This document shows, piece by piece, positions 6,031 through 27,200 of a DNA stretch of 64,000 bases. Source of the stretch: Amphiura filiformis (lineage: Eukaryota > Echinodermata > Ophiuroidea > Amphilepidida > Amphiuridae); NCBI RefSeq assembly GCF_039555335.1, contig NC_092637.1, forward strand, positions 9,570,815 through 9,634,814. The letters are read 5' to 3'. The position numbers and the translations under genes are program-made. Every line of letters starts with the position of its first letter. The first letter of the stretch is position 1. The notes beneath the pieces were generated by a model that saw nothing but the letters and a program-made list of their open reading frames with translations, made no database searches and had not been told where the DNA came from.

Positions 6031-6036
6031 TTTATT
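6031..6036 (-). promoter_or_regulatory. Candidate polyadenylation signal AATAAA overlapping the stop codon
   Basis: On the minus strand the last codons read CAATAAATCC, so the stop TAA is inside a perfect AATAAA. If used, cleavage would fall 10-30 bases on, near 6000-6020, leaving almost no 3' UTR. No other AATAAA was seen in the next 400 bases downstream. This is a sequence match only. Confidence 0.35.
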
Positions 6037-6238
6037 GTGAACCAACTAACAGATTCTTCATGTCTGTTACTATTTCCTGCTTCAGTTCGTCCAAGCGAGG
6101 ATCCAATTCTTCGCAAACAGCTTCTGCAATGCCTTTCTTGTTCTTCTCCAGCCATTCGTCTAACGCCTGCTGCAAACCGTCTGAGAGATCCCCCAGTGCT
6201 CTGTCCTGCATGCCCGCTGTTATTGCCGATTGCCTTAT
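6032..6238 (-). CDS. C-terminal exon of the gene
   Basis: A 207 bp last exon with acceptor GATACAG, phase 0. It encodes 68 residues rich in Glu, Lys, Asp and Leu (LQQALDEWLEKNKKG, LDPRLDELKQEI) and ends LLVGSQ-stop. The heptad-like spacing suggests an amphipathic helix or short coiled coil. I do not recognise the domain. Confidence 0.82.
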   Translation of the reverse strand: MRQSAITAGMQDRALGDLSDGLQQALDEWLEKNKKGIAEAVCEELDPRLDELKQEIVTDMKNLLVGSQ

Positions 6239-24200: not shown

Positions 24201-27200
24201 GCTATCAGAAGGCAGAGAAGGAACGAAAAATGATAGAAGATGAACAAAGATTTGACTTAGTACCCCAGGGCATTGACCCCGGACCCCTCGGGTGCCACAC
24301 ACACGATCATCGACCTCATGCCACGGGGGGTTTCGCTTGCCCGGCCAGCAATTTGGTTCGTATACATAACTTAGGTTGATTGCTCAATGGCATCACGTGG
24401 CATATGCATGCACAGTGGTTTTCCATGCAAGATTTTGTAAGGTTTTATAGCGTTAGGGTTAATACATAGGCCTTAACCCTAACGAGGAACATGTTTTTTT
24501 GCTATCGGAAGGAAGAGAAGGAACGGAAAAGAAGAGAATACGAATTTGACTTGATACCCCCGAGAATTCTCGCTATTCGCAATAAGGGCGCCGCCAGCGG
24601 TTTGCGATGTAATCGTGATGTATCATGGGAAAAGGTCGACATCCAAGTCCGCGCAATACGAATATTATCATGCTATTACATAGGAACACGTGACAATATT
24701 TTTTAGTTTGTCAAAATAAAGGTGTTACACGCGAATCGATACTCAATAATACTTAATAATGTGATTTGAAATGTGCACAATTAATTTTTTCTCTATCGAT
24801 TTGCGTGTAATACCGTTATATTGACAAACTAAAAAATATTGTCACGTGTTCCTATGTAATAGCATGGTAATATTCGTAGTGCGCGGACTTGGATGTCGAC
24901 CTTTTCCCATGATACATCACGATTACATCACATACCGCTGGCGGCGCCCTTATTGCGAATAGCGAGAATTGACCCTGGGCCACCTCGAGTCCCAGCAAAC
25001 ACAAAACGTTTTCGACATCATTCGCAAAAGGTTATAAAAGGTTGTCAGAAAACGTTTAAATGTCGGGTTATATAAAGGGTATATTAAGAGTATAAAACGT
25101 TTTCATAACCTTAAAAAATATTTTTTGATAATCTACTGCTCAGCAAACAAAAATGTTTTACAGAAAACTTTTAAATGTCGGGTTATATAAAGGGTATAAA
25201 AACGTTTTAATAACATTCCAAAAACATTCTTGAAAACTTGATACAAAACATTCTAAACAGAATGTTATTTTGGGGTTGAAAAATATTTTCAATAACGTTT
25301 TAAAAACGTTTTCATGACCTTTATATAACCCGACATTTAAATGTTATTAAAAGGTTTTGATAAAAACATTTTAAGAACATTTCTGCGTTTGCTGGGTTCA
25401 AATATTTTAACATAATGTTATTTAAGTATTGACACAATATTTGGTAAAAATGTTTGCAAAAATAGTTTACAATAACATGTTTTGAAAACATTTAAAAATA
25501 TTGTTGCAGTGTGTTTTCATGCAAAACGTTTTAAAACGTTATCATGACCTTTATATAACCCGACATTTTAATGTTATTAAAACGTTTTTACCTAAACCAA
25601 AAGCCAAAATATAACTTATTTAAAACGTTTTTAAAACGTTTTTGTGTTTGCTGGGGTGTCATGCACACGATCACCGACCTCGTGCCACGGGGGTTATGCT
25701 GGCTTGGCCAGCGATTTGGTGCGTATGTATGACTTTAGGGGATTGCGCAATGGCATCACGTAGCATGCATGCATGCATGCATGCATAGTGGTTTCCCTTA
25801 TAAGATGTTGTACGATTTTATAGCGTACAGGGTAAAGTTAAAAGATAAAAGCAAAAACATTATATTTCATTTTGATCCCGTTTTCTTAAGTAGTTAGAAG
25901 AGTTATTTTTTCTCGATATTAAAACAGACAAATTGAAGATATTCAAAATTTTGTACACAAAGCAGCACAGAACACTAATAACAATTTTCAACACGACAAA
26001 TGTACATACCTTAATACTTTTTACAAAATCCCTCCGCTCAGATATATGTTCGTTCGTTGGCCAATAGTCAAGAGGAACATTACCATCCTGTATGTACAAG
26101 AAAGGAATAAAAGTCTGCATTGGGCTATTCCAGATGTATTCCGCACCCCCCCATGGAAGACACTTCCGGAATTCGGGGCTAAATTGACAGCCTGAATTCA
26201 CATGTCAGGAAAACCCCATGGAAGACACTGCTGGAATTGTGGTAATATGTCTAATGTGGCCAGCCCGAATTCACGTAAATGTAAATGTCTTCCATAGGGT
26301 TCCAGCTGGAATTAGAACATTTTTTGTTTCCAGCCAGAATTCAAGTAAATGTCTTTCATAGGTTAATCGAGATGGTCATCATAAGTGAAGATTCTGCTAG
26401 AATTGGAGCATTTTTGACCATTTTCCAGCCGGAATATTAAGAAATGTGAATGTCTTCCATAGGCACATCATGGCCTTTCAAAATCCCCACTCTTGTTTTA
26501 TCGTTTATTTTAGCAGCCGGAGTTTCACCTAATTTCAATGTCTTCCATACCCTCCAGCCGGAATCTTTGCTAAAAATGACTGCTGGAATTCTTTTTAAAT
26601 GTCTTCCATAGGGGGGGGGGGGTGCGGAATACATCTTGAATAGCCCATTACACTGTCTCTAAGAAGCGTGTTTAAATTAAATGTTTAATGTTGGTGTTTA
26701 ACCCTGGATTAATGGAAATATTTGGGCCTCATAACTTAACTGACATATTGTTGGTCTACATTTAAAGTACAATAAGGTATACATATTTAGAATGACAAAG
26801 ACTTAACATTATATTATTTTATATTGTTGTTTTAAAATATTTCTCACATAAAAAGTACTTACACTCATGCTAATGAGGACACCTTAAAAACCGTAAAGTC
26901 GGCCCGGTCAATTTTGTTTTATTTCGTGTTTAGAAAATATATATCATAAGCTTTAAAATGGTATATCATTTGACTTCAAACGATATCCAGAAGCGGGGTT
27001 ATGGTTTGTTGAACTCTGTTCCTTCACCAAAATTATATCTTTTATTGGTTCTACATGTGTCTCTTTTTCCACATTTCTGGTAATACATATCAAACAGTCA
27101 TAATTGGCGGTCATTTCAAATCAATCCCAAGTCAACGAGGTTCAGGAATTAATGTCCCCTCATTGTTAATTGTTGATTATACATACCTAGACAAAATACA

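Follow-up and report, generated by a model that had tools for sequence, protein, structure and literature searches.

The 64-kb stretch of Amphiura filiformis DNA analyzed here (contig NC_092637.1; called the window, with coordinates counted from its first letter) carries on its minus strand a gene joining a Roc-COR GTPase core to a C-terminal HEPN domain, with an array of ankyrin exons upstream. Eleven exons running from 26087 to 6032, with AG/GT borders and consistent phases (in order along the chain 0,0,0,0,1,0,0,2,1,0,0), join into an open frame of 842 amino acids followed by a stop:

26010..26087, minus strand: linker exon following the ankyrin array, phase 0, beginning DGNVPLDYWPTN (corresponding junction in P0002 and P0005)
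23955..24086, minus strand: Roc exon with G1/Walker A GHPAKGKST (joined translation, Pfam)
23381..23608, minus strand: Roc exon with the switch regions and G3 DTAGQ (joined translation, Pfam)
18376..18487, minus strand: Roc exon with G4 THVD (joined translation)
17640..17800, minus strand: C-terminal Roc exon (joined translation)
14408..14587, minus strand: COR exon 1 (translation; Pfam COR-A at residues 278-383, under the curated cut-off; structure model)
13929..14155, minus strand: COR exon 2 (translation, Pfam, structure model)
8319..8902, minus strand: C-terminal half of COR (without a Pfam match alone; aligned to CtRoco COR in the model)
7466..7911, minus strand: first part of HEPN, DUF4559/CXorf38 type, with four zinc-ribbon-like cysteines (Pfam E 2e-8 alone)
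6831..7004, minus strand: second part of HEPN, with R-x4-H as RNSLSH (Pfam E 3.8e-5 and 23.8 bits alone, below the cut-off of 27)
6032..6238, minus strand: last exon, C-terminal helical tail and stop (translation, structure model)

The chain was assembled before the protein search turned up P0001, a public A. filiformis protein of 844 amino acids that is 100% identical to it across all 842 residues, and the agreement is therefore independent of the public model. P0001 has two more residues at its N terminus (MS), which fit the sequence ATGAGT/GT. Two such sites lie upstream; the extra residues are explained most simply by the one at 26868, in the intron adjoining the 26087 exon.

A preliminary description of the window, made by a model from the letters alone, had proposed a phase-consistent chain containing a Walker A/DTAGQ/THVD GTPase and a COR domain, and both were recovered. 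Roc matches PF08477 at E 3.3e-10 (40.7 bits against a cut-off of 27), and the G1, G3 and G4 motifs are intact in the translation. COR-A matches below its threshold (E 5.8e-7, 29.9 bits, cut-off 35.3), and the Roc-COR part of a P0001 structure model matches LRRK1 and CtRoco in a search that barely covered the model beyond residue 286. COR directly follows Roc, as in Roco proteins. No Pfam kinase family was matched in the window protein (E<=1) or in its paralogue P0002 (E<=0.1), with the true N terminus of the window gene possibly outside the scanned chain. Nor did Pfam scans match a C-terminal Death domain in either of these two proteins (P0006, described below, has one), NACHT in these two or in P0035 or P0036, or the kinase-like domain and KEN of RNase L in the window protein or the scanned paralogues.

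By its profile match, the C-terminal domain is a HEPN of the CXorf38 type: PF15112 (DUF4559) scores E 7.2e-19 and 68.8 bits, against a curated cut-off of 27, in the joined protein. The preliminary description had called the region at 6831-7911 a DZIP3-like HEPN with an R-x4-H motif. The HEPN assignment and the motif stand, RNSLSH being intact with a polar N directly after R; the DZIP3 label had to be replaced, because the DZIP3-type profile PF18738 gave no match at E<=1 in the window protein and only E 0.056 in one of four members. Pfam matches to other HEPN families over the domain are weak as well (RiboL-PSP 0.031, DZIP3 0.056, pEK499_p136 0.14), and some unrelated coiled-coil-like side matches scored better. 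Human CXorf38 contains DUF4559 (PMC4554924). In its treatment of this family, the HEPN survey of Anantharaman et al. (2013, PMC3710099) lists CXorf38 as an active HEPN on the basis of sequence, with a zinc ribbon inserted in the domain, and names dsRBD, NACHT, ankyrin, CARD and DEATH as its fusion partners in animals; it also describes the HEPN active site with a polar residue right after R. The four cysteines of the window HEPN, a putative zinc ribbon, are invariant across 21 aligned sequences (P0036 left out). In the P0001 model, a low-confidence linker at residues 545-572 separates the C-terminal half of COR from the HEPN, which is followed by a long helical tail.

Protein searches returned nine A. 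filiformis proteins with DUF4559 (P0001, P0002, P0004, P0010, P0018, P0019, P0020, P0035 and P0036), from genes spread over four contigs, told apart by their listed lengths (68.9, 67.8, 64.2 and 67.1 Mb). RNSLSH is present in eight of the nine; the ninth, P0036, has a model that ends inside the domain, before the motif, and its DUF4559 reaches 21 bits, below the cut-off of 27. Roc and/or COR occur in the same model as DUF4559 in seven (P0001, P0002, P0004, P0018, P0020, P0035 and P0036). P0002 has, in a single model, ankyrins (11 PF00023 stretches), Roc, a COR-A match of 26.5 bits, under the threshold, and DUF4559. P0035 and P0036 represent a second Roco backbone, on contigs other than that of the window; we count the two as one backbone because they are 77% identical to each other over Roc-COR. 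In P0035 the order is weak ankyrin, Roc, weak Death, CARD_2 (29.7 bits against 28.2) and DUF4559; in P0036 it is ankyrin, Roc, Death (23.2 against 22.6), CARD_2 (27.7, just under 28.2) and partial DUF4559. Pfam gave no COR-A match in either, and both align to the Roc-COR of P0001 over ~495 residues at 30-31% identity. Three further proteins, P0006-P0008, have an ankyrin-Roc-COR plan with Death domains (precomputed annotation; P0006 was also scanned). P0010 carries ZU5, a weak CARD_2 piece and a DUF4559 HEPN without a Roco, and P0019 begins with sequence that looks reverse-transcriptase-like by eye. The searches also returned 14 short DUF4559-like fragments (P0021-P0034; 53-62% identity to the window HEPN), most of which terminate near the exon border preceding R-x4-H.

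Upstream of the Roc-COR-HEPN chain, between 59957 and 27529, a pattern search found ten full ankyrin exons, a count that leaves out partial repeats. All ten are 102 nucleotides long, with AG/GT borders and phase 0 at both ends, and any number of them could therefore be spliced in:

27529..27630, minus strand: ankyrin exon of the last-repeat type, donor GATAAT|gtaagt (PF00023 E 7.7e-10; pattern search)
30862..30963, minus strand: ankyrin exon, 102 nucleotides, phase 0 (Pfam; pattern search)
35786..35887, minus strand: ankyrin exon, 102 nucleotides, phase 0 (pattern search)
41205..41306, minus strand: ankyrin exon, 102 nucleotides, phase 0 (pattern search)
44088..44189, minus strand: ankyrin exon, second copy of the last-repeat type (Pfam; pattern search)
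46471..46572, minus strand: ankyrin exon, 102 nucleotides, phase 0 (pattern search)
49826..49927, minus strand: ankyrin exon, 102 nucleotides, phase 0 (pattern search)
54101..54202, minus strand: ankyrin exon, 102 nucleotides, phase 0 (Pfam; pattern search)
54784..54885, minus strand: ankyrin exon, 102 nucleotides, phase 0 (pattern search)
59856..59957, minus strand: ankyrin exon, 102 nucleotides, phase 0 (pattern search)

Joining the exon at 27630-27529 to the 26087 exon gives ADPSQTDN|DGNVPLDYWPTN, which matches the ankyrin-linker junctions ADPSQVDK|DGKVPIDLWPTN in P0002 and ADPSQVDN|AGKVPLDYWPTN in P0005. The preliminary description had placed ankyrins, Roc-COR and HEPN in one protein. That architecture is found in P0002; for the window copy, the matching junction suggests that the ankyrins would belong to its transcript, and P0001 is without them. 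Within the length range of the protein search, there was no longer public form of the window copy. The variable sites among the ankyrin exons fall at positions which we take, for ankyrins in general, to face the ligand.

Half ankyrin repeats (e.g. NLDVCRILITEGKADVNKAQ) also lie on the minus strand at 30726-30785, 35653-35712 and 41074-41133, near three of the full exons, and more partial pieces with in-frame stops occur near 50.0 and 60.1 kb. The half-repeats and the stop-bearing pieces are perhaps decayed exons.

Between the two Roco backbones, the HEPN is far more alike than the Roc-COR core. In Roc-COR, P0001 shares 46-48% identity with the Death-bearing P0006-P0008 and 30.5% with P0035; in the HEPN, it shares 66.5% with P0035. 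The ratio of HEPN to Roc-COR distance, to be read with Roc-COR distances near saturation, is 0.69 (0.46-1.04) for P0001-P0002 and 0.55 (0.26-0.90) for P0035-P0036, both within a backbone, and across backbones it is 0.26 (0.19-0.35) for P0001-P0035, with the three remaining pairs at 0.20-0.26. In the HEPN tree, which like the others is unrooted, the ZU5 protein P0010 groups with P0035 and P0036 (support 96), and the same HEPN therefore sits on a non-Roco backbone too. These sequence comparisons suggest that the HEPN cassette spread between backbones after the backbones had diverged; slow HEPN evolution or gene conversion could produce the discordance instead.

We read these genes as a multi-gene family of intracellular immune receptors resembling NOD-like receptors, in which a Roco module would replace the NACHT switch and the CXorf38-type HEPN would be the C-terminal effector, a GTPase-gated RNase, and we assign this reading a probability of roughly 0.55. 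Its footing is what the sequences show: the order of the domains, GTPase and R-x4-H motifs that are intact, cysteines that are conserved, the set of paralogues, and a HEPN that disagrees with Roc-COR in its distances. To this the reading would add ankyrins in the transcript of the window copy, sensing of a ligand, gating by GTP, cleavage of RNA and a role in immunity. The ankyrin array, with its single-repeat exons, would bind a ligand or a guarded partner, and this binding would shift the GTP cycle and the COR-driven dimerization of the Roco core. Dimerization of Roco cores uses the C-terminal half of COR and follows a cycle that depends on nucleotide (Wauters et al. 2019, PMC6337361); the HEPN of the window protein comes after that half. 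COR would bring HEPN domains into pairs, and the paired R-x4-H sites would form an active, metal-independent RNase. HEPN RNases generally act as dimers. PMC3710099 does not use the word "dimer" in its main text. Cleavage of viral or host RNA by the paired HEPN would lead to antiviral arrest or to the death of the cell, and where a paralogue has Death-like and CARD-like domains, its core would recruit death signaling as well. An immune-receptor-like layout had already been proposed in the preliminary description; the layout gains support from P0035 and P0036, where Death-like and CARD-like domains stand between COR and the HEPN, and from the HEPN common to different backbones. A broader version, which we hold tentatively and at somewhat less than even odds, would give echinoderms a distinct class of cytosolic receptors: a Roco GTPase, rather than a NACHT or kinase, would control a HEPN RNase through dimerization by COR, the C-terminal cassettes HEPN, Death and CARD would be exchanged between Roco backbones, and the ankyrin sensors would expand by duplicating single-repeat exons. 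Such receptors would be the animal equivalent of the Roc-COR conflict proteins of bacteria.

Several observations weigh against the receptor reading. A structure search with a model of the COR end and HEPN of P0018 (predicted local distance difference test score 56.9) gave no significant match; none of the 14 DUF4559-like fragments has R-x4-H in its aligned part, most of them stopping at or before the site; and no named species besides A. filiformis appeared among the protein-search matches. In addition, P0001, the public model of the window copy, starts after the ankyrins and omits them, and the ratio of nonsynonymous to synonymous differences (pN/pS) among the ankyrin exons is 1.04 (28 pairs), a value that relaxed constraint fits as well as diversification does. 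The HEPN might instead be a non-catalytic RNA-binding or dimerizing module, and the protein a signaling scaffold of the DAPK/death-receptor type that recruits RNA or partners. PMC3710099 considers some HEPN domains to bind RNA without catalysis, the nearest Roc-COR relatives, P0006-P0008, bear Death domains in place of HEPN, and the long helical tail would suit such a module. We consider this scaffold unlikely, since RNSLSH with its polar residue after R is kept in eight of nine proteins and the CXorf38 family is listed as active in PMC3710099, itself a call from sequence.

We were also concerned that the ankyrin exons of the window might lie outside the expressed Roc-COR-HEPN gene, as part of another or alternative transcript or as decaying duplicates, in which case the copy would function with no ankyrins. 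The start of P0001 lies just ahead of the 26087 exon, the N-terminal exon type of P0002 and P0005 was not found within the 64-kb window, pN/pS is near 1 and partial repeats are present. Yet all ten full exons are open, in phase and flanked by splice sites, they are 89% identical among eight copies against 65% and 35% for the ungapped flanks, and the junction to the 26087 exon corresponds to those of P0002 and P0005. The reading frame is kept in these exons, with no sign of amino-acid constraint in pN/pS, and we regard their separation from the gene as rather doubtful. Finally, the fusion itself could be an artifact of gene modeling or assembly that merged a Roco gene with an adjoining HEPN gene, and some related models do seem incomplete or composite: P0003 apparently ends within the intron that follows COR, and P0019 has its reverse-transcriptase-like start. 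The COR-HEPN junction nonetheless recurs in P0001, P0002, P0004, P0018 and P0020, and P0035 and P0036, encoded on other contigs, again pair Roc with HEPN, which makes a chimera very improbable.

We take the union of Roco with a putative HEPN effector of the CXorf38 type to be a new combination of known kinds. Among the open-access papers that literature searches listed, judged from titles, openings of abstracts and text passages, none describes a Roco-HEPN fusion, which is not proof of absence; Roco proteins with kinase, death or TIR domains are described. The CXorf38 HEPN family shares PF15112, R-x4-H, the inserted zinc ribbon and fusions to ankyrin, NACHT, CARD, DEATH and dsRBD, but the passages of PMC3710099 consulted name no Roc-COR fusion and its main text contains neither "Roco" nor "LRRK", whereas the window protein has a Roco GTPase before the HEPN. 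DAPK1 carries ankyrins, and in P0002 too ankyrins precede Roc-COR. The nearest backbones, P0006-P0008, have Death (46-48% over Roc-COR), like DAPK1-type Roco proteins (PMC6337361); unlike that type, P0001 and P0002 gave no kinase match and have HEPN in the place of Death. The bacterial AP-GTPase (Roc)-COR conflict proteins (PMC8195603) likewise combine repeats, Roc-COR and a variable C-terminal effector, drawn from at least 24 different domains including GT4, TIR, DRHyd, caspase, trypsin, FGS and EADs, but they are bacterial, their repeats are leucine-rich repeats (LRRs), and the text of section 15 does not list HEPN as an effector.

Among eukaryotic systems, the DZIP3/hRUL138-like HEPN-NACHT receptors of pearl oyster and cnidarians (PMC9646362, PMC8260672) are also expanded invertebrate receptors pairing an NTPase with HEPN, mostly with R-x4-6-H in the oyster; as those reports present them, they use another HEPN family and NACHT rather than Roco, and the oyster HEPN is N-terminal whereas that of the window protein is C-terminal. 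Brown-algal LRR-ROCO receptors (PMC11378527), candidate immune receptors, share the one-repeat-per-exon design, uniform phase and repeat-exon duplication, but their LRR exons are 72 bp in phase 2, they are not animals and the account consulted names no HEPN. Aplysia TIR-ROCO proteins (PMC9334734) join an invertebrate Roco to an immune domain, in that case TIR and not HEPN. RNase L, of the KEN family in PMC3710099, combines ankyrin repeats with a HEPN-superfamily RNase. The window protein has Roc-COR and DUF4559 where RNase L has a kinase-like domain and KEN, and the 2-5A logic belongs to RNase L. Roco proteins have been studied mainly through LRRK2, whose GTPase output is hard to read. If the receptor reading is right, a Roco protein that naturally acts through an RNase would offer a simple read-out of how the Roc-COR nucleotide state and dimerization control an effector, would add a GTPase-gated branch to HEPN-based defence systems and would hint at what human CXorf38, itself little understood, might do.

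Between 27.7 and 46.5 kb, there are repeated copies of a ~5-kb unit that contains a Tc1-like transposon along with an ankyrin exon, and the copies at 30.8 and 35.7 kb are almost identical; the array seems to grow through duplication of this unit. The transposon occurs four times (28.4, 33.7, 38.6 and 44.8 kb), with weak helix-turn-helix and DDE_3-like Pfam matches in separate frames. Two long simple repeats lie farther along the window, (TC)95 at 50308-50497 and (TCAC)32 at 59360-59488.
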